A stretch of DNA of 48,076 bases, taken from a virus. Shown here piece after piece: positions 3,151 through 48,037 of the stretch. The stretch lies in the IMG/VR virus record IMGVR_UViG_3300020203_000023, positions 1 to 48,076 of that record. The stretch is one strand, 5' to 3'. Both the position numbers and the translations under genes were made by a program. Below the pieces are notes generated by a model, which saw only the letters and a list, made by a program, of their open reading frames with translations, did no database searches and was not told where the DNA came from. Position 1 is the first letter of the stretch, and each line of letters starts with the position of its first letter.

Positions 3151-3163
3151 AACATGTTTTTTC

Positions 3164-3191
3164 TTGAATTCAAACCATTGATGTATATAAT
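3164..3191 (+). promoter_or_regulatory. Sigma-70-type promoter for the capsid gene
   Basis: TTGAAT at 3164-3169 and a perfect TATAAT at 3186-3191 are 16 bp apart, 68 bases upstream of the capsid start. This is the best -35/-10 pair in the structural region and fits the very high expression expected of the gene. Confidence 0.6.
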
Positions 3192-3258
3192 GAATTCTGT
3201 AGACATCGCGGAGATGTCTAAGATTCGTTTTAGACAAATCCCTTTTATGGAGTCCCTT

Positions 3259-4823: not shown

Positions 4824-4865
4824 CAAAACTAAAGCTTTGTGGTATCCTCTATAAACAGAGGGATC

Positions 4866-13982: not shown

Positions 13983-15896
13983 TTAGAAGCATATGGTGAT
14001 ACCACCGGCTGCATTAATTATCTTCTCTTCTTGACTAGGATTCACACGTATTCCGTATTCTTTGTACATATGCTCGTCTATTAATTTTTTCATACCATCG
14101 ACAGAATCAACAAGAACAGGGTTAGTAGCGATTTCATGTTCCTTCTGCCCTCCTGCTAGATGGGACACCTGACTCGAAATGAAAGGATCTATTGCGTAAC
14201 GGAGGGCATCGCACCTATGAGTAAAATCATCATCGGCGAAATGGTTGAAATCGAACCCCATTGCTGTTTTTAGATATTGCCAAGATTCCATGTCTTTAAC
14301 CAGAGACATCGACAGGGCGTTGTAGGGATCATCCAATATCATGAATTGGGCTTCTTGCTTAGAAGCATTCCACAGGCGGGTGCGTATCCAGGAAACTCCA
14401 GTTTCAATTCTTGGTGGCTTTGTCCCGCGAGAAGGCATGCCGATAGAAGCAGCGAACGTTGGAGAAGACTTGTCAGCGGTGTCAGGACATACCAGGTCGA
14501 ACCCATAGACATCATAAATTCTGTTTTTTACATAGACTAACCAGTCCTGATTAGAAATACCTGGAGCAGTCTCGACGTGCAATACGAGGAGTTTGTCAGA
14601 ACTTTTCTGATACGCGACCAGGACGGCGGCGGCATAATCCACCCAGCCAAAGTCAACGCCGCAATTCAGTCTCCAGCCTTCATTCCGCAATTCTTGAATA
14701 AATTCTTTCTTAGTCGGAATCCGCAATGAACCATCGTGGTTCGTTGGATAGACGTTAAACGCAAAATTCCAGCATTCCTGCACTTTCTGGTAATGCTTGT
14801 TTTTATCGAATTTATTGTAGACGACGCCTCCAGACTCTGGGCGCAGATTGATTAACTGTGCATTGATTTTATCTGAATCCGCAACTTCTCGAATCAAATT
14901 CCCCACGAAGTCGACAGTTCTTAGATTCGGAGACGTGCTAGTTTGATTGATTGCGTCTGTCCTGCAGGTGACAAATATCGGGCATTTCCTGCAACCTTCG
15001 TACGCGGGGACTAAGTCGTAGGAATCCCTCATGGATTCAGACAACTCTGTGTGGGCGACGATATCCAAGACCGCCAATGTTTCTTTATGTATAAACAGGT
15101 CTATACGGGGCAATTCAGGCAAGTGCCGTTCTGGGAGGCAAGGTTTTGTCCAATCCGTAACGTTCCACCTGTGCAGGTGAATACCATTGGCAGGATCCTC
15201 TGACAAATTGATCTTTTCTTGCATCGGACCAACGGCTGTTTTTCTTGACGATAGATACACGAAAATCGGCGGTCTGCCGTTGGCGTCAGGGTCGGCGATG
15301 AATGTCGATTCAGAAAGAATATCTTTATCAATCAAGTCTGTTTCGTCGAAAATCAATAACGACGCACGGCTAGAGTTAGCACCTTTTTTGGTAGCGGTGA
15401 TCACCTTTAATTTTGCGTAATTAGATTTCTTGTATTCGTTGACAGGCATCGAACGCAATAATTTGAGACGTTTGTTATCCGACTTGAAATGTTTGTTTAT
15501 AATCGGGTTGTCTAGGAAGCGATCCAAGTAGTCGATGCACGCGATTGATTGATCTAGGATGGCTGCTAGATGGACGATATTGCGCCCGAGGTGAACCATG
15601 AAAAGGAATTCTAGTACTGACGCACAGAGCGTTTTCGCGCTATTTCGGCTGGCCGCCACTACGAACGTAGTCTTATTGGGGTTGCCAGTGAGCCCCGATT
15701 CGTAAACTTCCCATATAAAATCCATTGGATTAGAATTGCTGAAAGTACTTACGACCTTATCAGGTAATCGAATACTCAAGAAAGTTTCCAACCATTGCTG
15801 CAATTCTTTCTTAGAACGACAGGGCGTCCAAAACTTCTGTTCGTACAGACGTTCTAGGCGTTTTTGGAGTTCTTCTTGATTCGATTCTACTGTCAT
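13983..15896 (-). CDS. terL: Terminase large subunit
   Basis: 637 residues. The ATPase domain has a Walker A variant AASRNSAKT (81-89), Walker B LLIFDETD (180-187) and a coupling motif VYLSSRKT (213-220). The RNase H-like nuclease domain has GVDFGWVDYA (Asp415), CPDTAD (about 470-475) and a final acid in DALRYAID (about 575), the three metal-binding positions. An extra cluster CRKCPIFVTC (302-311) may bind zinc between the domains. The protein pumps DNA through the portal and cuts the concatemer. ATG 15896 overlaps the upstream stop by 4 nt. Confidence 0.92.
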   Translation of the reverse strand: MTVESNQEELQKRLERLYEQKFWTPCRSKKELQQWLETFLSIRLPDKVVSTFSNSNPMDFIWEVYESGLTGNPNKTTFVVAASRNSAKTLCASVLEFLFMVHLGRNIVHLAAILDQSIACIDYLDRFLDNPIINKHFKSDNKRLKLLRSMPVNEYKKSNYAKLKVITATKKGANSSRASLLIFDETDLIDKDILSESTFIADPDANGRPPIFVYLSSRKTAVGPMQEKINLSEDPANGIHLHRWNVTDWTKPCLPERHLPELPRIDLFIHKETLAVLDIVAHTELSESMRDSYDLVPAYEGCRKCPIFVTCRTDAINQTSTSPNLRTVDFVGNLIREVADSDKINAQLINLRPESGGVVYNKFDKNKHYQKVQECWNFAFNVYPTNHDGSLRIPTKKEFIQELRNEGWRLNCGVDFGWVDYAAAVLVAYQKSSDKLLVLHVETAPGISNQDWLVYVKNRIYDVYGFDLVCPDTADKSSPTFAASIGMPSRGTKPPRIETGVSWIRTRLWNASKQEAQFMILDDPYNALSMSLVKDMESWQYLKTAMGFDFNHFADDDFTHRCDALRYAIDPFISSQVSHLAGGQKEHEIATNPVLVDSVDGMKKLIDEHMYKEYGIRVNPSQEEKIINAAGGITICF

Positions 15897-16834
15897 ATTC
15901 TATAAAGTCTTTGCCGTGGAGTTTTGCCTTTCAGGCCAGTGCCAGACAGCAAATTTTTGTATTTCCTGAATTCACACGAACAGTTTTCGAGATTAGACGC
16001 AGTGATAAATACAGGCTTCCCCCTGATCATCAAGGGGTTAAGATCTGTGATTGGCTGCGTGTGCATCAATGTCTGAATAACGTCTGTCGCTTTGGCTTTC
16101 GGATTGAACGCCAGGGCCGAAGGAGTAGCACCTGGCCCGATGAACACTTTGTGGAATTCATTAATGAATTCAGGGAATTGGTAAGCAACGTCCATTAGAA
16201 CTTCCATAGACATGAATCTGGCGTTGAAGCCAACCAACGGGATTATGGCTTCGACTAATTGGATGATAGACCAATCATTTTTGCTAGAAATTATTGCAGC
16301 AATTTGTTTGACTCGTTTTGGGAGAAAATCAAAAATAAATTCTTGACGAGTCGAGCAGCCAGTGCTAATTATGCCTGCAATCGCGCTGTTGTAGGCTGAA
16401 GTCCACCGGACCCCTTCGATGCTGTCGAATTTGTCTCGGGCGGCTTGTAACGTGGACTCGGAAAAATCCAACAAGCCAACTTGTTCCACTATGTTGGGCA
16501 AACCTACCCAACGCATGTAGAAGAAATTCAGCAGAGTTAATTCTAGATCGTGCAATACCGGGGCAGCTAGCTGATGAAGCGCGACAGTGGTCTTATCCAA
16601 TTCTCGATACACATTGCAGAATTTATTCTTTTTCAAGATAATATCTTCTGTCCAAGGGAACGCTTGGCCTGAATCTTTTTTATGAAAAATGTTCATGCGT
16701 TCAGAAACAAAATCCCAAAATTCTTGCTCTAGCTTAGAATCGACAGCTACAAGATCAATTTTCGTATCTCTCGGGTCAATTTGACATTTATTCCAATGAT
16801 TATAAAGAACCGAAATAGCGGGGATTACAGTCAT
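15893..16834 (-). CDS. Thymine-hypermodification-type protein (5-hmdU DNA kinase helical domain / aGPT-Pplase-like)
   Basis: 313 residues. Residues 39-82 read FWDFVSERMNIF, HKKDSGQAFPWTEDIIL and KFCNVYRELD. This is the hallmark of the all-helical domain found in phage alpha-glutamyl/putrescinyl thymine pyrophosphorylases and in 5-hydroxymethyl-dU DNA kinases. Those enzymes act on 5-hmdU-containing phage DNA to install bulky thymine modifications after replication. No P-loop is visible, so the pyrophosphorylase/transferase side of the family is the better guess. The C-terminus has CSC and a basic tail. The gene is coupled by 4-nt overlaps to the terminase genes on both sides, so it is expressed at packaging time. 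Family membership is recognised from memory of the motif; activity is inferred. Confidence 0.66.
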   Translation of the reverse strand: MTVIPAISVLYNHWNKCQIDPRDTKIDLVAVDSKLEQEFWDFVSERMNIFHKKDSGQAFPWTEDIILKKNKFCNVYRELDKTTVALHQLAAPVLHDLELTLLNFFYMRWVGLPNIVEQVGLLDFSESTLQAARDKFDSIEGVRWTSAYNSAIAGIISTGCSTRQEFIFDFLPKRVKQIAAIISSKNDWSIIQLVEAIIPLVGFNARFMSMEVLMDVAYQFPEFINEFHKVFIGPGATPSALAFNPKAKATDVIQTLMHTQPITDLNPLMIRGKPVFITASNLENCSCEFRKYKNLLSGTGLKGKTPRQRLYRI

Positions 16835-28576: not shown

Positions 28577-29927
28577 TCACGATAGAATACAATTTCTGAC
28601 CAGCATCATAAATTTTGTGCCAACCAAGTTCATCTGCGTGTTGTTTTTCGCTTAATTTTCTGATGTCCATATTGGCTCTGCACCTGAGACGATTGAAAGT
28701 ATGTCTGAAATCAGTCCATTTCCACGACATGACTGTTTTTTGTGATTCCCACCCAATGTGTTCCAGGAACGTCCCAGTACCGTATCTCAGATCAGTCCAG
28801 AAAGTCCATTTCTGATGCAGATGTTTTATATATTTAAATAATTTAGAAAATCCACCAACCACATACACATTTATCCGAGTACACAATCTGGAAATATCTC
28901 CTATACCATCTTTCTTTTTGTAAGAAAGAATCATTACTAATTTCGATTCATGAAATAGCCCAACATGTTTGGCGTTAAAGCTGCCCATTAAATGGTTCTC
29001 GTTTAAGAAACTAGTCGCGTCTGCTTGGCTGACTGTACGTATTTCACATTTTCTCGCTTGTATTTTGATATTCTGGCCAAGAAGGTTCTTGCACATAGAC
29101 GCAACAATATTCGGCTTATCGATTATTTCATCTTCTCTGAACTGCAAGAGCCTGATATTCCGTGATTCAAGCTGTTCTCTGGCAGCGAAATGGCGATGAC
29201 GATTTTCTTCTTTAGAAGCAACGGAATGCCAATACAGACCGTCTACGTTAACGAATATGTTTTCGGCTAATTGGAAATCTGGCCTCTGACGCCCAATATA
29301 TTTATCGTATCTCGTGCCAATATTCATTTGTTGAAAAAATAATTCTATATTCGTAAGATGTTTTTCCAAGGGCAACCCTGCGGCTAGTCTAGCCCGGATG
29401 CAGCTCTCAGAAAGCTGAGTTGCGTCTTTCAATTGAACCATGGAAAGTTCTTCGCCTTGATGTTTATGCAAAACACGAGCCTTGCCTTTAGTTCTGTTAG
29501 AGAATTTCTCAACCCAACCATCTGGATGCCCAGATGTTTCACTGTATAAAAGACTCGAAGGCTTGGCCCAAAAAGTACCAACATGTCCTGCCTCAGTAAA
29601 TTCTGCTATACTGTCTAGACTCTTGTAAGTTTCTGGAACAATTTGTATCCCGCGAGATGCTAGCCTTTTCTGGATGATGTCGACTCGTATCTTTTCTTGG
29701 AGTTTAGAAGCACATAAACTTCTATTCATTTTACTTCGATCTGGGTGATTCCCTTTTCCTCTAGCCATATCGGTAGGTTTTCTCCAGAAAAGACCGAATT
29801 GAATATCTTCAAATTGGCAAAGAGTTTGAGAATCTATAAAAGATTCAGGGATCAGTCTAACGATAAAAGGATTGACCATTTTAATTTTGGTTTCAAAAAA
29901 AGACCAATCTTTACGAATGAACGTCAT
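28569..29927 (-). CDS. Homing endonuclease, Vsr-like, third copy
   Basis: 452 residues. ATG 29927 has GAGGA 7 bases upstream. The core motifs are QRPDFQLAENIFVNVDGLYWHS and NIRLLQFREDEI, with the shared second domain QARKCEIRTVSQADATSFLN, ENHLMGSF, LSYKKKDG, CTRINVYVVGGFSKL and WTDLRYGTG. It is more distant from the other two than they are from each other: the EYNGVYWHS form is VDGLYWHS, and the GMTE..H..LDG tail is replaced by KLSEKQHADELGWHKIYDAG. It is inserted, in reverse orientation, between two fibre genes. N-terminal repeats of a DFSSDH-like type were not found. Confidence 0.77.
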   Translation of the reverse strand: MTFIRKDWSFFETKIKMVNPFIVRLIPESFIDSQTLCQFEDIQFGLFWRKPTDMARGKGNHPDRSKMNRSLCASKLQEKIRVDIIQKRLASRGIQIVPETYKSLDSIAEFTEAGHVGTFWAKPSSLLYSETSGHPDGWVEKFSNRTKGKARVLHKHQGEELSMVQLKDATQLSESCIRARLAAGLPLEKHLTNIELFFQQMNIGTRYDKYIGRQRPDFQLAENIFVNVDGLYWHSVASKEENRHRHFAAREQLESRNIRLLQFREDEIIDKPNIVASMCKNLLGQNIKIQARKCEIRTVSQADATSFLNENHLMGSFNAKHVGLFHESKLVMILSYKKKDGIGDISRLCTRINVYVVGGFSKLFKYIKHLHQKWTFWTDLRYGTGTFLEHIGWESQKTVMSWKWTDFRHTFNRLRCRANMDIRKLSEKQHADELGWHKIYDAGQKLYSIVIT

Positions 29928-29968
29928 ATAATGTTCCTCGAACAAGAAAGTTGTTTGTATTAAAGTAG

Positions 29969-37972: not shown

Positions 37973-38181
37973 AATATTCTTTCTTCGGTTTGATCTTACT
38001 GCGATGCCACGGATCTGTGTTGATGGTCTGGGACCCAGACGTTTTTCGCTGGGAGAACGTTTCCCACCCAGCACCGACTACGTTCGACCGCAACAAATGG
38101 TTTACGGACTCAGAGATGGTCGAGCATTTCGCCTCCAACCAGTTACGCAGTCAAATTATATCTGACGCAGGATTAGTTTAA
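37969..38181 (+). CDS. MKY-family protein, diverged
   Basis: 70 residues starting MKYSFFG in an ATGA overlap. The C-terminus (FTDSEMVEHFASNQLRSQII, SDAGLV) keeps D-S-E and a terminal helix but deviates from both main classes. Its stop overlaps the next start by one base. Confidence 0.63.
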   Translation: MKYSFFGLILLRCHGSVLMVWDPDVFRWENVSHPAPTTFDRNKWFTDSEMVEHFASNQLRSQIISDAGLV

Positions 38182-38423
38182 TGTATTTCATTGTAGCTGG
38201 CGATCTTGAGGCTTTTGAAATCTACAAGCAACACGATTTGTTCAAAGGCGTTTTGCAGGTATTGAGGTTCAATAGCCACGGCTGTACTAGGCAGGACCTG
38301 CATTGGTCGATGTGCCAGAAGTCAGAAGATACACTCAGCGCTTGGCCACATTTCGACATAGAAAAACATCTTCATCTGCTCCCCGCGCCCATGCAGGAAT
38401 ACATGATAGAAGAACTTCTATGA
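38181..38423 (+). CDS. MKY-family protein, class B
   Basis: 80 residues. MYFIVAGDLEAFEIYKQHD start; end PHFDIEKHLHLLPAPMQEYM and IEELL. One of the clearest class B ends. It overlaps the next gene by 4 nt. Confidence 0.66.
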   Translation: MYFIVAGDLEAFEIYKQHDLFKGVLQVLRFNSHGCTRQDLHWSMCQKSEDTLSAWPHFDIEKHLHLLPAPMQEYMIEELL

Positions 38424-38623
38424 AGTACTGTTACGATTGCCTCCTTCACCGACAATACGAAAATGGAACTATCGAATGGTTCTACGAATATGATGGAAGC
38501 TGGCGTGCTTCACAAGGCTTGCGCGGTCCGCGTTGGGCTCAGTGGCGCGATTTTGATGACTTGATGGACGCTTTTGAGGATCACCCAACCCTCATCGAAC
38601 TCATAGTCCTGGCACTGGTCTGA
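38420..38623 (+). CDS. MKY-family protein, class A
   Basis: 67 residues from the ATG at 38420 in an ATGA overlap; the open frame further upstream lies inside the previous gene. MKYCYDCLLHRQY start; WFYEYDGSWRASQG beta region; end FDDLMDAFEDHPTLIELIVL then ALV. Confidence 0.64.
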   Translation: MKYCYDCLLHRQYENGTIEWFYEYDGSWRASQGLRGPRWAQWRDFDDLMDAFEDHPTLIELIVLALV

Positions 38624-38853
38624 TGGAGACTTACTTGCATCTTCCGGGTTGCTCACGGCTATACATCGAAGTTTCCGTGTCTAAATACTATGACTGCTAC
38701 AATGTTTGTTATTATGCAGAGCACGAAATCGACGGGCCATATTGGAAAATCCATATAGTAGACCCGGCGCTCCTCGTACCGTTTTCCTTTGAGGAACATT
38801 TTGGTATGCTAGAACCAATATGCCGAGCATACCTACTGAAAGTTTACGTATGA
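38623..38853 (+). CDS. MKY-family protein, class B
   Basis: 76 residues, one-base overlap with the previous stop. METYLHLPGCSRLYIEV start, Tyr/Cys-rich middle (YYDCYNVCYYAEHE), class B end VPFSFEEHFGMLEPICRAYL and LKVYV. Confidence 0.65.
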   Translation: METYLHLPGCSRLYIEVSVSKYYDCYNVCYYAEHEIDGPYWKIHIVDPALLVPFSFEEHFGMLEPICRAYLLKVYV

Positions 38854-39086
38854 AATACCACTACGACGGCGATCTGTTTAGAACACTTGACGGGCACATC
38901 GAACTCTTTGATGAAAGAAGCAGTGCGTGGTACCCCGGCATCCCGCGAGCCTTTGAAGCATACGTCGCGCGCAGACTCACCGGCGGGAGCGTTGACCCAG
39001 TAGCATGGCACGATTTCGATTTCTTCATGTTTCTATATGCGGATCAGCCCATCGTACTTGCGAGAATCATAAAGGCGTTGGTATGA
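38850..39086 (+). CDS. MKY-family protein, class A-like
   Basis: 78 residues from ATG 38850 (4-nt overlap). MKYHYDGDLFRTLDGHIELF start, RSSAWYPGIPRAF middle, end WHDFDFFMFLYADQPIVLAR and IIKALV, where the Ser-Ile-Glu is replaced by Asp-Phe-Asp. Confidence 0.64.
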   Translation: MKYHYDGDLFRTLDGHIELFDERSSAWYPGIPRAFEAYVARRLTGGSVDPVAWHDFDFFMFLYADQPIVLARIIKALV

Positions 39087-39310
39087 AATACCAATATGAA
39101 GCTACAGCGTATAGAATGCCAGCAGACAATTCTTCAGTGGAACAGTTTCACGTCGGGCTCAATAAGTGAATCCCTATTGCGATCTATGGCCCCAACGAGC
39201 GGGCCAGTCGAGCGGAACTCTCCGAGATATTCCTCGATATCGAGGAGCTGCTGGAGCTACACGTTGATCAGCCCGAAGCGATTGCGTTCCTAACGAATGT
39301 GGTGTTCTGA
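39083..39310 (+). pseudogene. MKY-family gene interrupted by in-frame TGA
   Basis: The ATG at 39083 (4-nt overlap) gives MKYQYEATAYRMPADNSSVE then QFHVGLNK and stops at TGA 39164-39166. The same frame then stays open to 39310 and encodes a perfect class A end (FLDIEELLELHVDQPEAIAF, LTNVVF), whose stop overlaps the next start. The TGA falls where relatives carry Trp (TGG). A nonsense mutation, sequencing error or readthrough are all possible. Confidence 0.68.
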
Positions 39311-39537
39311 TGAAATACTACTACGGGCACTCCCGCGTGCTGTACAGACTGTCCCGCTGCGAAACTGCCATCGATCTTTTCCTTCCGTCCGACATGCGTT
39401 GGGCTCGGGTGAACCTGCGCTCGCAGACAACCGAACCACCGCTCCGCACAACGCAATACCACGATGTTGAGACTTTGTTGAATATGCACTCTAACGACCC
39501 GGTCGCTATTAGAGACATAGTAGAGGTTTTGGTGTGA
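39310..39537 (+). CDS. MKY-family protein, class A
   Basis: 75 residues starting MKYYYGHSRVLYRLSRCETA; end YHDVETLLNMHSNDPVAIRD and IVEVLV. It begins with a one-base overlap with the interrupted copy, so readthrough or reinitiation would affect its translation. Its N-terminus is close to that of the next gene (MKYYYGH). Confidence 0.68.
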   Translation: MKYYYGHSRVLYRLSRCETAIDLFLPSDMRWARVNLRSQTTEPPLRTTQYHDVETLLNMHSNDPVAIRDIVEVLV

Positions 39538-39767
39538 AGTACTACTACGGGCACGACACGCTGTACAGGTCAGGCGCCGACGAAATTACATTTGAGTGTC
39601 ACAACATAACCACCGGACACTGGGTCCTGCTCGCCCCGATTTCGTCTGGGTTCAAGAACGCTTACCCGCAGCGTCGACGAGAGCAATACCGCAATATCGA
39701 GGCGTTACTAGAGCGCCACTCTGACGATCCAGACGCCATTAGATACATAACAACGGTCTTGATATGA
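39534..39767 (+). CDS. MKY-family protein, class A, GTG start
   Basis: 77 residues beginning at GTG 39534, fixed by the 4-nt overlap and by alignment of MKYYYGHDTLYRSG with neighbours. End YRNIEALLERHSDDPDAIRY then ITTVLI. Confidence 0.68.
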   Translation: MKYYYGHDTLYRSGADEITFECHNITTGHWVLLAPISSGFKNAYPQRRREQYRNIEALLERHSDDPDAIRYITTVLI

Positions 39768-39991
39768 AGTATTGCGTGTTCGACGAATCCATTTGCCGAA
39801 CTGAAGATTTTGAAACAATAGACGTCTGGATTGATTATCAGCAGCGCTGGTTCGCCGAGACGGCCGAAGCCGTCGCTTACAAGAGACTGGCGTTCAAACA
39901 CAGCATCTGGGCAGATTCTGTTCAAGAACTTTTAGAGCTTTGGTCTCACGACCCAAGCGTGTGTAGAGTGATTCTACGAGGGTTCGTGTGA
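39764..39991 (+). CDS. MKY-family protein, class A
   Basis: 75 residues. MKYCVFDESICRTEDFETID start; end WADSVQELLELWSHDPSVCR then VILRGFV. The last eight residues (CRVILRGFV type) are the same as in the gene at 41330 although the N-termini differ, a sign of module exchange. Confidence 0.68.
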   Translation: MKYCVFDESICRTEDFETIDVWIDYQQRWFAETAEAVAYKRLAFKHSIWADSVQELLELWSHDPSVCRVILRGFV

Positions 39992-40221
39992 AATATTGCT
40001 TCAGTTCTACGCTCTTGCTCAGGACATCAAACTTTAAAGATTTCGAATACTTCTCGGCTGCGGGCAAAGTTGCAGGTTGGAGCGGGTGGTTGGAATTGTA
40101 TGGTTCGACTCCGATGAGAGAGGCACTCACACCAGATGTTTGGAAGTCTGCTGAAGAATTGTTCGACAGTCTTAAAGATGATCCAATTCGAATGGCTTAC
40201 TTAGTGAAGGTGTTGATCTGA
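39988..40221 (+). CDS. MKY-family protein, class A, GTG start
   Basis: 77 residues from GTG 39988 in a 4-nt overlap. MKYCFSSTLLLRTSNFKDFE start; end WKSAEELFDSLKDDPIRMAY then LVKVLI. It pairs best with 40641 (TADFETFEYFEPF, WKSAEELLEMY). Confidence 0.67.
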   Translation: MKYCFSSTLLLRTSNFKDFEYFSAAGKVAGWSGWLELYGSTPMREALTPDVWKSAEELFDSLKDDPIRMAYLVKVLI

Positions 40222-40430
40222 TGAAATACTCCTATTGCGGCGGCCGGGTGTTCAGAAAACCCCATGCTGGCGCGCCGAAGCAGTGCTGGATGAGTGCGAC
40301 CCAAACTTGGTCGGCCGGCGCCTTCCACATAGCCGATAACTGGCAGTGGTATGATTCTGTTGAAGATTTGTTAGATTTCTGGAAACGCAAACCAAAAATC
40401 ACGAGATTCATAGTGGAAGAACTTGTATGA
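40221..40430 (+). CDS. MKY-family protein, class A
   Basis: 69 residues. MKYSYCGGRVFRKPHAGAPK start, NWQWYDSVEDLLDFWKRKPK then ITRFIVEELV end. The end is shared with 40427 and 41551 (ITRFI[VT]E[EA]L). Confidence 0.68.
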   Translation: MKYSYCGGRVFRKPHAGAPKQCWMSATQTWSAGAFHIADNWQWYDSVEDLLDFWKRKPKITRFIVEELV

Positions 40431-40639
40431 AGTACTACGTTTGCGGCCACCGCTTGTACAGAATACCCTATGGTACCTCTGTGCAGTTCTGGAGAATGGA
40501 GGACAAAACGTGGCTGTACCCGTTCATGGACATTGCCTCACGCCTTGACTGGGAGTGGCAGGATTCTATTGAAGATTTGTTGGACGTCTGGAAAGACAAC
40601 CCAGAAATCACTAGATTCATAGTGGAAGCACTTCTATAG
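40427..40639 (+). CDS. MKY-family protein, class A
   Basis: 70 residues. MKYYVCGHRLYRIPYGTSVQ, FWRMEDKTWLYPFMDIASRL, then WEWQDSIEDLLDVWKDNPEI and TRFIVEALL. Close relative of 41551, about two-thirds of residues shared by eye. Confidence 0.68.
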   Translation: MKYYVCGHRLYRIPYGTSVQFWRMEDKTWLYPFMDIASRLDWEWQDSIEDLLDVWKDNPEITRFIVEALL

Positions 40640-40640
40640 T

Positions 40641-40859
40641 ATGAAATTTTACTTCCACGGCTATTTTCTAATTAAGACAGCAGACTTTGAAACTTTCGAA
40701 TACTTTGAGCCGTTCGAGAGACCGGGGTGGCAACAATTGAATCGAAAGCCGGTGGGAGACGAAGCCGACCAAAAACATTGGAAGTCTGCCGAAGAACTGT
40801 TGGAAATGTATAGTGGTAACCCCGTTGCAGGTCGCACGCTCATAAGGGCTTTGATCTGA
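40641..40859 (+). CDS. MKY-family protein, class A
   Basis: 72 residues, one base after the previous stop. MKFYFHGYFLIKTADFETFE start; end WKSAEELLEMYSGNPVAGRT then LIRALI. Overlaps the next start by one base. Confidence 0.67.
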   Translation: MKFYFHGYFLIKTADFETFEYFEPFERPGWQQLNRKPVGDEADQKHWKSAEELLEMYSGNPVAGRTLIRALI

Positions 40860-41083
40860 TGAAATACCACTACTTGAAAGGCGTGAATGTTTATCGAAAA
40901 GCGGCAGGCGCCCGCGAGCCCGTAGAATATTGGCACGCGAAAGAAGGAATCTGGAGACAGTCAACGAATGAATGGCCGATGCGCGACTTCTCCGATCCCG
41001 ACTGGTTAGATTCTTTTGAAGAACTGCTAGAGCATTGGTCTCACGACCCAGTCGCCGTTAAAAATATACTACTCTTAGTATAA
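40859..41083 (+). CDS. MKY-family protein, class A
   Basis: 74 residues. MKYHYLKGVNVYRKAAGARE, PVEYWHAKEGIWRQSTNEW, then WLDSFEELLEHWSHDPVAVK and NILLLV. First of four genes with the N-VYR...VEYW..K...WR core (40859, 41098, 41330, 41763). Confidence 0.68.
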   Translation: MKYHYLKGVNVYRKAAGAREPVEYWHAKEGIWRQSTNEWPMRDFSDPDWLDSFEELLEHWSHDPVAVKNILLLV

Positions 41084-41097
41084 GAAAGCCAATGCAT

Positions 41098-41316
41098 ATG
41101 AGGTTCCACTACGCTCTCGACGTGAATGTTTATCGGATGGTGGACGCCGTGTATGTGGAGTATTGGCACGAGAAAACAGGAGTCTGGAGGCAGACAACGA
41201 CCCAGTGGACGGGGACCAACTTCTCCGGCCCCCTCTGGACAGATTCTATTGAAGAACTGCTAGAGCTTTGGTCTCACGACCCCCGAGCCGTTAAGTGTAT
41301 ATTACGTCTAGTGTAG
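41098..41316 (+). CDS. MKY-family protein, class A
   Basis: 72 residues from ATG 41098. An in-frame ATG at 41092 exists, but the shared leader AAAGCC..GTATATG-type sequence before 41330 and 41997 places the start at 41098 (MRFHYALDVNVYRMV). VEYWHEKTGVWRQTT core; end WTDSIEELLELWSHDPRAVK then CILRLV. Confidence 0.67.
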   Translation: MRFHYALDVNVYRMVDAVYVEYWHEKTGVWRQTTTQWTGTNFSGPLWTDSIEELLELWSHDPRAVKCILRLV

Positions 41317-41329
41317 AAAGCCTACGTAT

Positions 41330-41551
41330 ATGAAGTACCACTACTCTGAAGCTGAGAACGTTTATCGGACCATGGATTACTTGTATGTAGAGTATTGGAA
41401 CGAGAAAGCAAGAAGCTGGAGAGAATCAACAGCTAACTGGACGAGAACCGATTTCTCCCACCACTGCTGGCAAGATTCTATTGAAGAACTGCTAGCACAT
41501 TGGTCTCACGACCCTGCAGCGTGTAGAGTAATACTACGAGGGTTCGTTTGA
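41330..41551 (+). CDS. MKY-family protein, class A, recent duplicate
   Basis: 73 residues. The first about 100 bases are almost identical to those of 41763 (two or three differences), giving MKYHYSEAENVYRTMDYLYV and EYWNEKARSWREST. The end WQDSIEELLAHWSHDPAACR, VILRGFV instead matches 39764. The leader repeats AGAAAGCCTACGTAT. Confidence 0.7.
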   Translation: MKYHYSEAENVYRTMDYLYVEYWNEKARSWRESTANWTRTDFSHHCWQDSIEELLAHWSHDPAACRVILRGFV

Positions 41552-41766
41552 TGAAGTACTGCGTTCGCGGCCATACCTTGTACAGAATTCCTCGTCCTGG
41601 TGCCACCGTGCAGTTCTGGAGAATAGAGAACAAAACCTGGGTGGGGCCGCTCCTTGACATTGCCAACCGCGTTGGCTGGGAGTGGCAGGATTCTATTGAA
41701 GATTTGTTGGACTTCTGGAAAGACGACCCAGAAATCACGAGATTCATAACAGAGGAACTTGTATGA
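41551..41766 (+). CDS. MKY-family protein, class A
   Basis: 71 residues from ATG 41551 (one-base overlap; an in-frame TTG just before is ignored). MKYCVRGHTLYRIPRPGATV, QFWRIENKTWVGPLLDIANR, WEWQDSIEDLLDFWKDDPEI, TRFITEELV. Near relative of 40427. Confidence 0.68.
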   Translation: MKYCVRGHTLYRIPRPGATVQFWRIENKTWVGPLLDIANRVGWEWQDSIEDLLDFWKDDPEITRFITEELV

Positions 41767-41981
41767 AGTACCACTACTCTGAAGGTGAGAACGTTTATCG
41801 GACCATGGATTACTTGTATGTAGAGTATTGGAACGAGAAAGCAAGAAGCTGGAGAGAGTCAACGCTCCGCTGGCGAACGCCCCCCATCGTCGAACGCGTC
41901 TGGACAGATTCTATTGAAGAACTGTTAGAGCACCACTCTGAAGACCCCGACGCCACTAAGTGTATACTACGCCTAGTATAG
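41763..41981 (+). CDS. MKY-family protein, class A, recent duplicate
   Basis: 72 residues, 4-nt overlap. The N-terminal half is nearly identical to 41330. The C-terminal half is different (WTDSIEELLEHHSEDPDATK, CILRLV) and closer to 41098. This is direct evidence for duplication followed by recombination inside the array. Confidence 0.7.
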   Translation: MKYHYSEGENVYRTMDYLYVEYWNEKARSWRESTLRWRTPPIVERVWTDSIEELLEHHSEDPDATKCILRLV

Positions 41982-41996
41982 AAAGCTCTCACGTAT

Positions 41997-42260
41997 ATGC
42001 CGAATTCCGATCTTCCGCACCCTCGCTATTTTATAGACCTAAATTATAATATCTTGTACGTATTGTCGTATTATTGGGACGGCCCACTCCGCGTGGGCGA
42101 CGCATCGCAGGTCGTCGGCACGGAGCAAGGCGCCAAGCTCTTGAAGAGCCACGCCTCAGAAGAGATGATAGTTAGGTGGTGCGACCCTTTCAGCCTAGAA
42201 GAACACGCTCCGCGCCTCCCTCCTTCAACTCTAGAATACATGATAAAGGTACTCGTCTAA
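41997..42260 (+). CDS. MKY-family protein, class B
   Basis: 87 residues. MPNSDLPHPRYFIDLNYNIL start with an extended N-terminus; end CDPFSLEEHAPRLPPSTLEY then MIKVLV. The leader AGAAAGC..ACGTATATG is shared with 41098 and 41330. Overlaps the next start by one base. Confidence 0.65.
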   Translation: MPNSDLPHPRYFIDLNYNILYVLSYYWDGPLRVGDASQVVGTEQGAKLLKSHASEEMIVRWCDPFSLEEHAPRLPPSTLEYMIKVLV

Positions 42261-42880: not shown

Positions 42881-42941
42881 GATCTCTATTCGAGAGATCT
42901 CTATTCGAGAGATCTCTATTCGAGAGATCTCTATTCGAGAG
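42881..42941. repeat. 15-bp tandem repeat, four copies
   Basis: Unit ATCTCTATTCGAGAG repeated four times without change, each containing the palindrome AGAGATCTCT across the junction. A fifth partial unit lies at about 42814. The array is flanked by GAGACTCTATATAGGGGGC (about 42847) and GAGACTCTATATGGGGGGC (about 42939). The iterated palindromes suggest a binding array for a replication or regulatory protein. Confidence 0.85.
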
Positions 42942-43005
42942 ACTCTATATGGGGGGCATTAGTTTGTTGGGTTCGATTAAATGATTTTTGGGGTACCCCG
43001 CCAGT

Positions 43006-43020
43006 TGGCACGCTTTTTGC
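43006..43020 (+). promoter_or_regulatory. Sigma-54-like promoter element 1
   Basis: TGGCAC-N5-TTGC, preceded by T and followed by A: an exact match to the -24/-12 consensus, 190 bases upstream of the first island gene. It could also be one of several TTGGCAC binding sites. Confidence 0.42.
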
Positions 43021-43053
43021 ATAGCAAAAATGTCGTTTTGTACAAAAGACAAT

Positions 43054-43068
43054 TGGCACAACATTTGC
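43054..43068 (+). promoter_or_regulatory. Sigma-54-like promoter element 2
   Basis: A second exact TGGCAC-N5-TTGC match 48 bases after the first and in the same orientation, followed by the palindrome GCATGCATGC. Confidence 0.42.
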
Positions 43069-43083
43069 ATGCATGCAATTTCC

Positions 43084-43101
43084 GTGCCACCGGTTTGGCA
43101 C
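43084..43101. repeat. GTGCCA / TGGCAC inverted repeat
   Basis: Perfect 6-bp arms with a 6-bp centre ccggtt. Together with the two sigma-54-like elements there are four GTGCCA/TGGCAC sites in 96 bases, as expected for an operator cluster. Confidence 0.6.
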
Positions 43102-43118
43102 GAAATAAACTTTTGGGC

Positions 43119-43161
43119 GGTGCTTAAGCCAGGTGCACGTAACGCCGTTACATTACTGTAG
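43119..43161 (+). promoter_or_regulatory. Promoter-like repeat, copy 1 (diverged)
   Basis: GGTGCTTAAGCC..GTGCACGTAACGCCGT lines up with copy 6 at 46245 (GGTGCTAAAGCT..ATGCCCTTAACGCCGT), but its 3' part is TACATTACTGTAG instead of AGAGTATATGTA. It also lacks GA/TC, as if rewritten to avoid them: the AGAG and GGATG bases are the ones changed. It lies 53 bases before the first island gene. Confidence 0.55.
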
Positions 43162-43213
43162 CCAATGCAAGGTGCAAGGGCTATAACACCAAAACGCTAG
43201 GGGTGCCTACCAA

Positions 43214-43612
43214 ATGCAAGTTACACAAAACGCTACCAATAACACCACGTTAATTGTTACGCCTGCAGGCCAAGCAACTTTGCCCACCGCGCTGTTTAAT
43301 ATTTTTGCAGCGTGCACCGCGCCCACCGCCTTGGTACAAATTGTGCAGGCGGGCGTAGCGGCTGGGTTTACAAACGGGTTTATTAGGGCGCAAGTGCAAG
43401 TGTTAGCCCAGCCCGGCCAATATAACGGTAGCCCGTGCATAGGGGCAATTTGTACCAGTACACAGGGTAAGCGCGTGTTTGTGCAGTTTGCGGTAGCGGG
43501 CGCCGCCCGGCCCAAGTTAACACGTACGGGTAGCAACCAGCCCGCCGCGCACGCCTTGGCCGCCGCCCCCACCAGCGTTGCCCCCGCCGTAGCCTTGCCC
43601 ACCGTAGCGTAA
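43214..43612 (+). CDS. Island protein lacking all Asp and Glu
   Basis: 132 residues from ATG 43214. It has no Asp, no Glu and only AGY serines, because every codon containing GA or TC is absent; the stop is TAA. It is therefore strongly basic, Ala/Thr/Val/Gln-rich with hydrophobic segments (LFNIFAACTAPTALVQIVQA, AAGFTNGFIRAQVQVLAQPG). The C-terminal 35 residues are Ala/Pro-rich. Reality as a gene is supported by the upstream promoter-like repeat and a terminator 9 bases after the stop. Unrecognised. Confidence 0.62.
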   Translation: MQVTQNATNNTTLIVTPAGQATLPTALFNIFAACTAPTALVQIVQAGVAAGFTNGFIRAQVQVLAQPGQYNGSPCIGAICTSTQGKRVFVQFAVAGAARPKLTRTGSNQPAAHALAAAPTSVAPAVALPTVA

Positions 43613-43620
43613 CACCAACC

Positions 43621-43647
43621 GGGCGCCGCCCGCTGGGCGCCCTTTTT
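43621..43647 (+). terminator. Rho-independent terminator
   Basis: GGGCGCC-gcccgct-GGGCGCCC followed by TTTTT: a 7-bp GC-only stem directly after the first island gene. It too is free of GA/TC. Confidence 0.88.
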
Positions 43648-43676
43648 AAACACTGGTTAACAGGGGTATACATACC

Positions 43677-44111
43677 ATGGCCAAAGTTACACTTGCCAAT
43701 GTTATTGCAATGTTACAGGCTACCCGCTACCCCCAGGTACGTTGGTACAGTATTATACAAACCGTACCAGGTAGCGGTATGGGCCACCACCTTAGCCGCG
43801 CCCTAGGTATAGTAATTAACGGCCAACCGTATATTATTAGTTACAAGGGTACCGTGCACGGCCACGGGCGCCCCAACCGGGCCAATGATTTAGGTATACG
43901 CGCCCAAGTAAGCCAAGCCTTGCGCGCCCTACCAAGCTACGGCGTTACATCTGAGACAACGCACGGCTGTAGTATGGCGGTAGCCTACACCAAGCACCCT
44001 ACCGTAAACGCGGCCCTGCAAGCCCTATTGGCCGGGCGCCGGGTAAGCGCCCGCTACGGGGCCGGGCTAACGCAAGTTATGCAAGCCTTTAACAAAGTAC
44101 ACCCGTTTTAA
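43677..44111 (+). CDS. Island protein with near-total GA/TC avoidance
   Basis: 144 residues with one Asp (RANDLG) and one Glu (TSETTHG), the only places where GA or TC occur in the gene. Basic, His/Gly-rich (GSGMGHHLSRALGIVINGQP, YKGTVHGHGRPNRANDLGIR) with a helical C-terminus. CAGGGG lies upstream of the ATG and a terminator follows the stop. No catalytic family is recognised. The conserved-looking His, Asp and Glu could be functionally required exceptions. Confidence 0.64.
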   Translation: MAKVTLANVIAMLQATRYPQVRWYSIIQTVPGSGMGHHLSRALGIVINGQPYIISYKGTVHGHGRPNRANDLGIRAQVSQALRALPSYGVTSETTHGCSMAVAYTKHPTVNAALQALLAGRRVSARYGAGLTQVMQAFNKVHPF

Positions 44112-44114
44112 TAG

Positions 44115-44141
44115 CCGCCCGCCCGCTGGGCGGTTTTTTTT
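44115..44141 (+). terminator. Rho-independent terminator
   Basis: CCGCCC (44115-44120) / GGGCGG (44128-44133) with a 7-nt loop, then eight T. Confidence 0.9.
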
Positions 44142-44152
44142 GGTGGCCGGGC

Positions 44153-44169
44153 CAGATTCTCAGAATCTC
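44153..44169. repeat. Palindrome AGATTCTCAGAATCT, site 1
   Basis: A near-perfect palindrome (CAGATTCTCAGAATCTC) 3 bases before promoter-like repeat copy 2. It is identical, with its following 24 bases, to the sequence at 44562-44601. Confidence 0.75.
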
Positions 44170-44171
44170 GA

Positions 44172-44218
44172 ACTATTTACTAATGCTAGATGCATGTATT
44201 GCCGTAGAGTATATGTAA
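44172..44218 (+). promoter_or_regulatory. Promoter-like repeat, copy 2
   Basis: Contains TACTAATGCTAGATGC and then ATTGCCGTAGAGTATATG. It lies 32 bases before the ATG at 44250, with AAGGAG between. Conserved core in all later copies: GCTAATGCT-GATGC, TAATGCCGTAGAGT, TATATG. Confidence 0.65.
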
Positions 44219-44249
44219 ACAATGACCCAAACCGCAAAGGAGTCCAGCG

Positions 44250-44524: not shown

Positions 44525-44548
44525 AAGGCCCTTCTGGGACCTTTTATT
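44525..44548 (+). terminator. Probable terminator
   Basis: AAGGCCC-TTCT-GGGACCTT (one C/A mismatch) followed by TTATTTA, a few bases after the stop. Weaker than the two before it. Confidence 0.6.
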
Positions 44549-44560
44549 TAGTTGCTGGTT

Positions 44561-44577
44561 GAGATTCTCAGAATCTC
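44561..44577. repeat. Palindrome GAGATTCTCAGAATCTC, site 2
   Basis: A perfect 8-bp arm palindrome around a single C, directly upstream of promoter-like repeat copy 3; same arrangement as site 1. Confidence 0.8.
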
Positions 44578-44579
44578 GA

Positions 44580-44625
44580 ACTATTTACTAATGCTAGATG
44601 CTCGTAATGCCGTAGAGTATTTGTA
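44580..44625 (+). promoter_or_regulatory. Promoter-like repeat, copy 3
   Basis: ACTATTTACTAATGCTAGATGC then GTAATGCCGTAGAGTATTTGTA; 42 bases before the ATG at 44667. Confidence 0.66.
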
Positions 44626-44666
44626 CGCAACGACCCACGTTTGACTGACCAATTGGAGTGATTGCA

Positions 44667-45405: not shown

Positions 45406-45594
45406 ATGGATCCACAAGTTCTCGCTTCTCTGCTCAACCTCTCGCAGCTCTTAGCTGGACTCGCTCTTCTGTTCGTGATCTCTCTAGCTCTCATCTCTTT
45501 CACTGTCTATACGCTCAACATCATTCGGACTCCAGACTACAAGAAGTTGGCTCAAGAAGCAGAGGAAGAAGTCAACGGACAGTTCCAGGACTAA
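45406..45594 (+). CDS. Small single-span membrane protein
   Basis: 62 residues. The membrane segment is about residues 13-38 (LSQLLAGLALLFVISLALIS), with a charged cytoplasm-type tail (IRTPDYKKLAQEAEEEVNGQ). AAAGGAG lies upstream. Could be a holin, a superinfection-exclusion factor or an envelope-acting early protein; nothing distinguishes these. Confidence 0.66.
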   Translation: MDPQVLASLLNLSQLLAGLALLFVISLALISFTVYTLNIIRTPDYKKLAQEAEEEVNGQFQD

Positions 45595-45616: not shown

Positions 45617-45721
45617 ATGGACTACGATGATGATTGCCTCGACGTGTCAGAGTTCGGTGAAGAAGAAATGGAATACCTCGAGCGCACATGGATCACTGGA
45701 GACGAAGATGAAGATGAATAA
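45617..45721 (+). CDS. Tiny acidic protein
   Basis: 34 residues, ATG 45617 with AAGGAGATATACC just upstream, an ideal ribosome site. MDYDDDCLDVSEFGEEEMEY then LERTWITGDEDEDE: about half of the residues are Asp or Glu. DNA-mimic-like acidity is noted, but length makes this speculative. Overlaps the next gene by 14 nt. Confidence 0.6.
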   Translation: MDYDDDCLDVSEFGEEEMEYLERTWITGDEDEDE

Positions 45722-45932
45722 GCCTTGTTGGCCGATCGTGTTTCTCGACGCCTTCATATTCTGTGCACTCGCTGCTTTCGCCGCTCTGATCTGCTACCTC
45801 GTGTTTCTTATGTTCAAGGCCGCGTCGGCTTTCTCGGTCGGGGCAGTCGTCATCTTTGTTTCTGTTTCGTTCATCGTAACTCTAGTGCATCATCTATTCA
45901 GGAAAGGCCCATTTTCTAAGGATGACATATGA
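45708..45932 (+). CDS. Small two-span membrane protein
   Basis: 74 residues from ATG 45708 (GGAG 6 bases upstream; ATG 45714 also possible). Two hydrophobic segments (IVFLDAFIFCALAAFAALIC and FSVGAVVIFVSVSFIVTLVH) separated by a short polar turn, with a basic end. Holin-like topology but no further evidence. Stop overlaps the next ATG by 4 nt. Confidence 0.63.
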   Translation: MKMNKPCWPIVFLDAFIFCALAAFAALICYLVFLMFKAASAFSVGAVVIFVSVSFIVTLVHHLFRKGPFSKDDI

Positions 45933-46165: not shown

Positions 46166-46212
46166 AGACTCTCAGATTCTCAGAGTCTGAAATCGATTTT
46201 GAGATTCTGAGA
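46166..46212. repeat. Cluster of AGATTCT/AGAGTCT inverted repeats
   Basis: AGACTCT (46166-46172) and AGAGTCT (46182-46188) form a hairpin. CAGATTCTCAGAG overlaps it, and TTTGAGATTCTGAGAC (to 46212) is an inverted version across a central ATCGAT. Related to the palindromes at 44153 and 44561. Confidence 0.6.
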
Positions 46213-46244
46213 CATTAGCAATCTTCGTGCCAAAAATACTTGCA

Positions 46245-46290
46245 AATAGGTGCTAAAGCTGGATGCCCTTAACGCCGTAGAGTATATGTA
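46245..46290 (+). promoter_or_regulatory. Promoter-like repeat, copy 6
   Basis: AATAGGTGCTAAAGCTGGATGC then TTAACGCCGTAGAGTATATGTA; 51 bases before the ATG at 46341. Confidence 0.65.
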
Positions 46291-46340
46291 AGTAAGGCGC
46301 GGTGCTGACGCTTACAACACCAGGTTCTAGGAGAATCACA

Positions 46341-46913
46341 ATGACAGCTACCACACTTTCCTTCACGGTTTCCGATGCAAATGGCAAGACGATCATTGAA
46401 GCTAAGAATGGTGAAATCTCAGTCAAGAAGATTGACCTTCCCACAGCAGCGTTCGATGTCCTCTCGCAGCTCACCGATCCCACCCCTAACAAGGAAGTCC
46501 AGCAGCTTATCGCACACGCCATGGGATGGGGCCTCAACGAAGCAGGACGCTGCCCAAAAGCAGCAGCCCTCCTGGAGCGCGTGACTCACGGATACGGTGT
46601 GTTCAATGGTGTAATTGCAGTGATGGTTGCTTCTAGTGTCGGCAAGTCCCGGTTCTTTAGCTTCAATGAGAACCTGGCAGCAGCCGGTGCAGCCCCGATG
46701 CTCACCCGTCAGAAGAAAGCAGAAACAGTAGTAGTCGATGACGGCATGGTACTGGTAGAAGCTCCCGACGCTCCGGCTTCAAAGTTCTCCGAAGAAGTAA
46801 TCACAGAGCTCACCCATCTCCAGCAAGTGCTCTCGGAAGACTTTACAGAAGTAGTTTACCCTGATGATGAAGCAGCGCCCTTCGAAGCTCGTGGGATTGA
46901 AGACGCAGTCTAA
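46341..46913 (+). CDS. Abundant-looking hypothetical island protein
   Basis: 190 residues from ATG 46341 with AGGAG upstream; the frame's earlier ATG at 46302 has none. Restricted codon use suggests high expression. A beta-rich N-terminus (TTLSFTVSDANGKTIIEAKN) is followed by a helical domain (LLERVTHGYGVFNGVIAVMV) and a long acidic tail (VVDDGMVLVEAPDAPASKFS, ending DDEAAPFEARGIEDAV). No family recognised; an early-expressed host-interaction or DNA-associated protein is possible. Confidence 0.66.
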   Translation: MTATTLSFTVSDANGKTIIEAKNGEISVKKIDLPTAAFDVLSQLTDPTPNKEVQQLIAHAMGWGLNEAGRCPKAAALLERVTHGYGVFNGVIAVMVASSVGKSRFFSFNENLAAAGAAPMLTRQKKAETVVVDDGMVLVEAPDAPASKFSEEVITELTHLQQVLSEDFTEVVYPDDEAAPFEARGIEDAV

Positions 46914-46984: not shown

Positions 46985-47248
46985 ATGACAGCCTACTATA
47001 TCAGTCTGAAAAGGCCGAACAGTGCGCAGCGGCTAACTAGGGAAGGCCCATCAGGGGCGTCTCATCGACTGGGATGGAACTACGCTACAGAAAAGACCGA
47101 ATGGATGCAGAAGCTCACGCGCCAGTTCGCGGCCCACCTTGGCTTCGAGTATCAGACAGCAGGGCCGTTCTATTCTCTCGAGGAAGTGCTAGAGTGTGAT
47201 TTACTTTGCTCAGAACTCAGAGCAACAATCATAAAAGACTTGTTATGA
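46985..47248 (+). CDS. MKY-family protein, class C
   Basis: 87 residues with GAGGAG upstream. MTAYYISLKRPNSAQRLTRE start; end FYSLEEVLECDLLCSELRAT then IIKDLL. First member after the island; its start resembles the internal module of the long 42260 protein. Overlaps the next gene by 4 nt. Confidence 0.66.
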   Translation: MTAYYISLKRPNSAQRLTREGPSGASHRLGWNYATEKTEWMQKLTRQFAAHLGFEYQTAGPFYSLEEVLECDLLCSELRATIIKDLL

Positions 47249-47523
47249 AGTATCAGCTCTGGACAGTCAACGGGCTTCTTACGCCTCCAGGCTGGATACT
47301 GTCCAAGACAGACCTCGTCACTGGAGAATACTGGGACTTCATCATCTGGGCAAACAAAAGGCTTCAACCATCATGGCGTCCGTCTGACTGGCATAAGCCC
47401 ATCCACCACCCTAGCGACTTCATTCGATGCGTCATAGGAGAATACGATACTCTAGATGAAGTGATTGAAGCATGTTGTACAGACCAAGATAAAGGTGCTA
47501 CGGTTCTCAAGGCATTAATCTAA
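47245..47523 (+). CDS. MKY-family protein, class C
   Basis: 92 residues from ATG 47245. MKYQLWTVNGLLTPPGWILS, KTDLVTGEYWDFIIWANKRL, end YDTLDEVIEACCTDQDKGAT then VLKALI. The core K-[TM]-D-x-V-[TS]-G-[ED]-x-W-D-F is shared with the next gene. Confidence 0.67.
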   Translation: MKYQLWTVNGLLTPPGWILSKTDLVTGEYWDFIIWANKRLQPSWRPSDWHKPIHHPSDFIRCVIGEYDTLDEVIEACCTDQDKGATVLKALI

Positions 47524-47801
47524 TGAAGTACGAGCTCTACTACGTCGAGATGCAAGGAAAGTTCTATAGACGTTTGATGCTGTCTAAGATGGACCCCGTG
47601 AGTGGAGATCACTGGGACTTCGTGGGGCTTGATGTATTCAGCCCTCGGCGGCAGTGGAAACAGACTAATTGGGAAAACCCGAATTCGCCGATGTACCACT
47701 GTAGTGAGATGTTAGGCTCGTTCGACTCTCTAGAGCAGGTGCTTGAGAGCAAGCATCTAGATTCTGAATTGAGAGAACAGATCATCGAGGTATTGGTCTA
47801 A
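47523..47801 (+). CDS. MKY-family protein, class C
   Basis: 92 residues, one-base overlap on each side. MKYELYYVEMQGKFYRRLML, SKMDPVSGDHWDFVGLDVFS, end FDSLEQVLESKHLDSELREQ then IIEVLV. Duplicate-like relation to 47245. Confidence 0.67.
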   Translation: MKYELYYVEMQGKFYRRLMLSKMDPVSGDHWDFVGLDVFSPRRQWKQTNWENPNSPMYHCSEMLGSFDSLEQVLESKHLDSELREQIIEVLV

Positions 47802-48037
47802 TGAAGTATCAGATAACTACATTCGATCTCAGTTGGCCACTACTAAACACTCAGTGTTTGATCAGAGCAGATGTCAACTCTTGGTCTGCTTTGTCTACTC
47901 GTGGATTCGAATACTGGAACCCTACAGAGCGGCCAGGGCGTATCATTGTCGCAGAGTTCGACTCTATTGAGGAAGTCTTAGAGTACAAAGATCTGGGAGT
48001 CGATCTTAGAGCTCGAATCATTAAGCACCTCTTATGA
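47801..48037 (+). CDS. MKY-family protein, class C
   Basis: 78 residues. MKYQITTFDLSWPLLNTQCL start, FEYWNPTERPGRIIVAE middle, end FDSIEEVLEYKDLGVDLRAR then IIKHLL. Overlaps the next start by 4 nt. Confidence 0.67.
   Translation: MKYQITTFDLSWPLLNTQCLIRADVNSWSALSTRGFEYWNPTERPGRIIVAEFDSIEEVLEYKDLGVDLRARIIKHLL

Follow-up and report, generated by a model that had tools for sequence, protein, structure and literature searches.

GA and its complement TC are excluded from a single transcription unit of a contractile-tailed phage, and this exclusion is a real, very strong and unexplained rule that is confined to the one unit. The unit lies in the IMG/VR record IMGVR_UViG_3300020203_000023, the whole of which (48,076 bases) was analysed and is called the window below. 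The desert matches a leader, a gene (D1), an intrinsic terminator, a second gene (D2) and a further terminator; its end lies some 12 bases past the latter, at the start of ordinary repeat sequence (Table 1). Motif avoidance as such is a known kind of phenomenon; the exclusion of a single dinucleotide from one cassette only has, to our knowledge, apparently not been described before, and no description of it was found in the literature searched.

Table 1. Features of the D1-D2 cassette, its surroundings and related loci in the window.
Feature	Position	Strand	Remarks
PF18723 (HMUDK_hel) protein	15893..16834	-	thymidine-hypermodification pathway gene; adjoins terminase
Palindromic tandem repeat (TATTCGAGAGATCTC)	42881..42945		GA/TC-dense; directly upstream of cassette
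Wider depleted cassette	42984..44154		promoter region to just past second terminator; only 8 GA/TC
TGGCAC-N5-TTGC element, sigma-54 -24/-12-like	43005..43021	+	perfect match
Second TGGCAC-N5-TTGC element	43053..43069	+	perfect match
Third TGGCAC-N5-TTGC element	43074..43090	-	same place and strand as p46 leader element 46217-46233 (-)
Strict desert	43104..43886	both	0 GA, 0 TC
GA-purged copy of leader motif TAATGCTAGATGCNNNTAATGCCGTAGAGTATAT	43124..43157	+	GATGC to GGTGC, TAGAGT to TTACAT
Gene D1, 132 aa	43214..43612	+	no Asp or Glu; Shine-Dalgarno AGGGG; p46 paralogue
D1 intrinsic terminator	43621..43647	+	GA/TC-free
Gene D2, 144 aa, orphan	43677..44111	+	one Asp, one Glu
D2 intrinsic terminator	44113..44142	+	GA/TC-free; aligns with ordinary terminator after D3
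104-nt repeat	44126..44229	+	84% to 44534-44637; overlaps desert end
Gene D3, 89 aa	44250..44519	+	partly purged, behind ordinary leader
p46 leader	46205..46340	+	homologous to D1 leader
p46, ordinary D1 paralogue	46341..46913	+	first ATG after Shine-Dalgarno AGGAG; GA/TC normal

Extent of the GA/TC desert

About 48 GA and 48 TC (96 in total) are expected in the strict desert from its base composition (C233 G202 A188 T160), and none of either was counted, as the first-pass annotation had claimed. Its statements that gene D1 contains neither Asp nor Glu and that only four exceptions occur before position 44153 also proved correct, GA/TC being found at 43887, 43950, 43953 and 43955 and next at 44155. 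The strict GA/TC-free run measures 784 bases. Simulated first-order Markov sequences of 48 kb (n = 60) had longest runs of this kind with a mean of 50 and a maximum of 76 bases, so that simple chance can be rejected. None of the other symmetric dinucleotide pairs has a comparable gap (longest 219 for AT, 187 for CG and at most 155 for all others), and in the remainder of the window GA/TC has an observed/expected ratio of about 1.1. The G+C content is 0.55 in the desert vs 0.48 in its surroundings. Depletion is weaker on both flanks, namely in the partly depleted D3 on the right and, on the left, in 42984-43103, which holds 4 GA/TC vs 15 expected and where AG/CT are equally low.

The genes were tested individually by holding the protein fixed and drawing codons from the usage of the rest of the window. 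Under these conditions D1 (0 GA/TC vs 32 expected) and D2 (4 vs 43) both have a z of -8.0 and D3 (10 vs 27) has a z of -4.9, while all other genes tested are no lower than -2.8. All four GA/TC of D2 lie within or adjoining its Asp codon and its Ser-Glu codons. Codon bias is rejected on account of these values and because non-coding DNA follows the rule too. The simplest cause is therefore a process at the DNA level, which the first-pass annotation had already proposed alongside one at the RNA level: genes and non-coding parts obey the rule alike, on either strand, which argues against codon bias and protein composition.

An ordinary sister cassette in the same genome

The purged cassette has an ordinary sister about 3 kb away. 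D1 and p46 share 28% identity (BLASTP E-value 2e-5 in pairwise comparison and 1e-3 among the 576 ORFs of the window), and their leaders align with a score of 50, while 380 segments drawn at random from the window never exceeded 36. None of the nine GA/TC of the p46 leader that could be aligned survives in the D1 leader, vs 48 of 114 for other dinucleotides. The leader motif TAATGCTAGATGCNNNTAATGCCGTAGAGTATAT is common to five ordinary leaders, that of p46 included; both of its GA sites are kept in all five and both are lost in D1. The Shine-Dalgarno sequence is AGGGG in D1 and D2 vs AGGAG in most other cassettes, and alignment of the D2 terminator with that of D3 reveals that GA/TC has been replaced in the former. 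The element TGGCAC-N5-TTGC has four perfect matches in the window, all upstream of D1 or p46; these look like sigma-54 promoters, a resemblance that is a match to a consensus and not proof of a promoter.

Based on the paralogous protein, the homologous leader and the related terminator, we interpret the D1-D2 cassette as a purged form of the phage's own kind of cassette. The homology of D1 and p46 in both protein and leader, the changed Shine-Dalgarno sequence and the D2/D3 terminators together make it most likely that the ordinary state came first and that the purge is derived. It is an extreme case, as a rule at the DNA level appears to set the composition of a protein: Asp and Glu make up 13% of p46 and are absent from the 132 residues of D1.

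These relationships bear on two expectations of the first-pass annotation. Import from an unrelated genome, which it had offered as an option, is rejected, given the leader alignment score, the paralogy of D1 and p46 and the related terminators. It had also supposed that a homologue with ordinary GA/TC content would reduce the local loss to a chance effect of one lineage; such a homologue does exist, as p46 in the same genome, but the comparison reveals a derived rewriting rather than a chance loss. An assembly chimera or a piece of synthetic DNA is highly improbable. The region is known from a single contig and no second copy of it was found, yet the paralogy of D1 and p46 in protein and leader, the repeat running across the edge of the desert and the graded depletion of D2 and D3 would not be expected of a contaminant.

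We also regard as unlikely a different kind of import, in which the donor is a closely related sister phage, or a satellite, that has the same type of cassette and avoids GA/TC throughout its genome. D1, D2 and part of D3 would in that case have recombined at the shared leader and terminator repeats, GA/TC being slowly regained thereafter. The right edge of the desert indeed lies inside the 104-nt repeat that is shared with the next cassette and in which the 3' part, an ordinary leader, contains GA/TC, and the remaining GA/TC are clustered and rise in number from D2 to D3, as in mosaics. However, every Asp and Glu codon contains GA, so that avoidance throughout the genome is impossible for a phage with enzymes and such a sister is hard to accept; moreover, no relative of D1, of D2 or of the surrounding gene array was found in the collections searched.

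How the dinucleotides were replaced

Twelve replacements could be aligned, and these are of nine kinds (GA to GG, AC, AG, GT, GC or CA, and TC to TT, CC or GC); C-to-T or G-to-A alone accounts for one of the twelve. As a null model we used random sequences of the composition of the desert in which GA and TC are forbidden. Most dinucleotides agree with this model (z of 0.0 for AA, AC and CA, -0.2 for TA), while CT (z -3.5) and TG (z -2.5) are low and TT is slightly high (z 2.8). TG and CA are still present (39 vs 52 and 66 vs 66 expected, respectively). The statement in the first-pass annotation that AG and CT remain common thus holds for AG, which is near expectation, but not for CT, which is also low when compared to composition (22 vs 48).

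These data are best explained by selection that acts against GA/TC on duplex DNA, as the mixed replacements and the expected values of most other dinucleotides point to selection and not to one mutagenic chemistry. A mutator with a single chemistry, such as a 5'-TC deaminase, is unlikely in view of the chemical variety of the replacements and the lack of an AA excess. In particular, it is highly improbable that the desert is a mutational scar, be it of a cytosine deaminase with 5'-TC specificity (TC to TT, GA to AA) or of another mutator of this kind. The lost dinucleotide is the exact target of DddA and APOBEC3, and TT is indeed slightly high; DddA is specific for 5'-TC in duplex DNA (PMC10442228), and an enzyme of this type would, like the observed rule, affect both strands. 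It would be expected to leave TT and AA scars, however, while AA is exactly as expected, the G+C content is raised and only one of the twelve replacements fits. As TC to TT and GA to AA are not dominant, hypermutation by such an enzyme was rejected.

GA and TC have been lost alike from the sense strand (0 of about 48 each), and the simplest explanation is a reader of duplex DNA rather than of mRNA. This equal loss largely disfavours avoidance at the RNA level, which we consider quite improbable. An enzyme like CmdT would ADP-ribosylate GA in mRNA, and the nearly GA-free mRNA of D1 and D2 would escape it. CmdT carries out GA-specific ADP-ribosylation of mRNA, acting on GA in single-stranded RNA, and the GA of the Shine-Dalgarno sequence has been suggested as its target (PMC11618068); D1 and D2 lack precisely this GA, with AGGGG in place of the usual AGGAG. 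The CmdTAC system differs in that a reader of GA in single-stranded RNA does not require the removal of TC from the same strand. Loss of GA with retention of UC in the mRNA would be the signature of CmdT avoidance, but TC has gone as completely as GA.

What may read GA/TC on the DNA

The purge of D1-D2 and the normal GA/TC of its sister cassette suggest that something which reads GA/TC on DNA acts against this unit. A word that is excluded from one cassette and free in the sister implies a reader of that word on the DNA, with each occurrence being costly in the purged unit. Our judgement is evenly balanced on whether the phage keeps one unit permanently free of a dinucleotide that is targeted by its own DNA-modifying machinery or by a DNA-damaging defence of the host. 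If it does, gene expression is partitioned by a sequence rule of two bases, and DNA chemistry dictates the composition of a protein that has neither Asp nor Glu. Identification of the reader would uncover a regulatory function of phage base modification, with exempt genes staying readable, or else a dinucleotide-specific host defence, and the presence of purged and ordinary sisters in one genome makes the rule directly testable.

Of the possible explanations, we tentatively favour one where the D1-D2 cassette is a transcription unit exempt from modification. The phage would hypermodify T wherever C follows it; a unit that lacks TC on either strand would then carry no bulky modified T, and D1 and D2 would stay readable by the host RNA polymerase, or escape a modification-dependent attack, while the remaining genome is modified. 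Both may be genes whose products are required at this stage, such as immediate-early or counter-defence genes, and selection at each site would have removed GA/TC by whatever substitution was available. We infer each step of this chain, from the presence of the PF18723 gene to the marking of TC and the usefulness of an exemption.

Several observations are consistent with this explanation. The depletion is equal on both strands, runs through the leader, both genes and both terminators, and stops shortly past the second of these terminators; the mixed replacements and the expected values of the other dinucleotides favour selection. The record encodes a protein of the thymidine-hypermodification pathway, with a match to PF18723 at an E-value of 1.3e-21 and 77.6 bits (cutoff 25). 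Relatives of PF18723 occur in 171 phage records, including phages of Pseudomonas, Klebsiella, Salmonella and Dickeya and both the M6-like and the ViI-like groups, and in the M6-like Pseudomonas phage Ab18 the gene adjoins a P-loop kinase and a thymidylate-synthase-like gene. Hypermodified T is carried by the phages M6, ViI and PhiW-14, in each of which the sites that resist restriction indicate TC or TG as its context (PMC6449724). Phosphorylation of 5hmU by HMUDK lowers transcription by E. coli RNA polymerase in vitro to 10% of that from the unphosphorylated template and 37% of that from natural DNA (PMC6457204).

Other observations weigh against an exempt unit. The published contexts are TC and TG, yet TG/CA is not absent from the desert. 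GA/TC is retained in at least 18 cassettes nearby, several of which have the same leader motif. Neither a 5-hmdU P-loop DNA kinase nor a dUMP hydroxymethylase was found among the proteins searched in this 48-kb fragment. No desert exists in the parts covered of Ab18 (50 kb), PhiW-14 (100 kb) and Vi01 (50 kb), where the longest GA/TC-free run is 47–52 bases. M6, ViI and PhiW-14 share with the present phage the PF18723 gene and, under this proposal, a context that includes TC and a mark on both DNA strands; they differ in having TG as a second context and in that the parts of Ab18, ViI and PhiW-14 examined contain no desert.

The main rival is an attack by a host enzyme on duplex or single-stranded DNA at GA/TC, with D1-D2 as an emergency counter-defence unit that has been purged by selection. 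The unit would have to function while the enzyme is active. We consider this rather doubtful; although it accounts for the symmetry and the limits of the desert nearly as well as an exempt unit does, nothing specific speaks for it. Candidate enzymes include a DNA ADP-ribosyltransferase, a cytosine deaminase acting at 5'-TC and a nuclease; DddA has the appropriate target, and CmdT, which modifies GA, acts weakly on single-stranded DNA too (PMC11618068). The symmetry of both strands, the coverage of the whole transcription unit and the mixed spectrum of replacements are consistent with such an attack, and small orphan cassettes in a variable array, as D1-D2 is, are a usual site of anti-defence genes. 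On the other hand, GA/TC is at ordinary levels in the genes for replication and structure, and the unit alone could rescue the phage only if the enzyme is stopped by its products.

A 7-deazaguanine modification of the preQ0 type at GA, from which the cassette would be exempt or protected, is very unlikely. Such a mark also acts at the DNA level and is dinucleotide-specific, and in phage CAjan preQ0 is reportedly found at GA motifs. However, no match to a queuosine-pathway (Que) or DpdA-type family was obtained among the window proteins searched, which is weak evidence in a genome fragment.

With respect to known systems, the first-pass annotation knew of none with this signature. This statement has to be qualified, as three systems do read GA or TC (T hypermodification, CmdT and DddA), though none is known to produce such a desert. 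Avoidance of restriction sites is similar in that a recognition word is lost by diverse substitutions, but it concerns palindromes of 4–6 bases throughout a genome and not a two-base word in one transcription unit, and the rest of the window, with an observed/expected ratio of about 1.1, shows no overall depletion. Moron-type phage cargo resembles the cassette in having its own upstream elements and terminators and in occupying a variable region; D1-D2 differs from it in being paralogous to resident cassettes and not foreign. Avoidance of a CRISPR PAM was set aside by argument, as zeroing 1 kb of an otherwise ordinary genome would be useless.

Genomic context and searches for relatives

The record is a 48-kb fragment, and profile searches covered part of its ORFs. 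It encodes a primase, a major head protein, a portal protein, a terminase, a tail sheath protein and RNase H. The terminase has one relative among phage records, in Myxococcus phage Mx1 (31% identity), as well as relatives in two fragments of the same phage. The carrier of the PF18723 protein (5-hmdU DNA kinase, helical domain) is a phage distantly related to Mx1. Mx1 itself, read whole, has no GA/TC-free run of more than 46 bases.

For D1, D2, p46 and the array proteins, no homologue was found in phage records, IMG/VR or GTDB genomes where these were tried, nor for D2 in plasmids. DNA searches with the desert and the leader motif gave nothing but two chance matches (L008 and L009), both inside an unrelated coding region. 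The predicted structures are too weak for use (pLDDT 55 for D1 and 43 for D2), and a comparison of that of D1 with the PDB yielded no significant fold match.

Rightwards from about 38 kb the genome holds an array of small genes in which paralogues belonging to one MKYxY family are numerous, and the D1-D2 cassette lies inside this array. Around 18 paralogous MKYxY genes of 60–100 aa are arranged in tandem at 38181-42260 and 46985-48037; no IMG/VR relative of these was found. Two array genes, 45406-45594 and 45630-45932, show the opposite of the desert, a GA/TC excess with z of 5.1 and 4.2 at fixed protein. The repeat that adjoins the GA/TC-free cassette on its left consists of four copies of the GA/TC-dense unit GATCTCTATTCGAGA with a period of 15. 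Elsewhere in the genome, three proteins belong to PHROG homing-endonuclease families (1591-3285, 4839-6356 and 28569-29945); two of the three match the Pfam Mom DNA-modification family at their C-terminus, and two of the three genes flank that of the major head protein.
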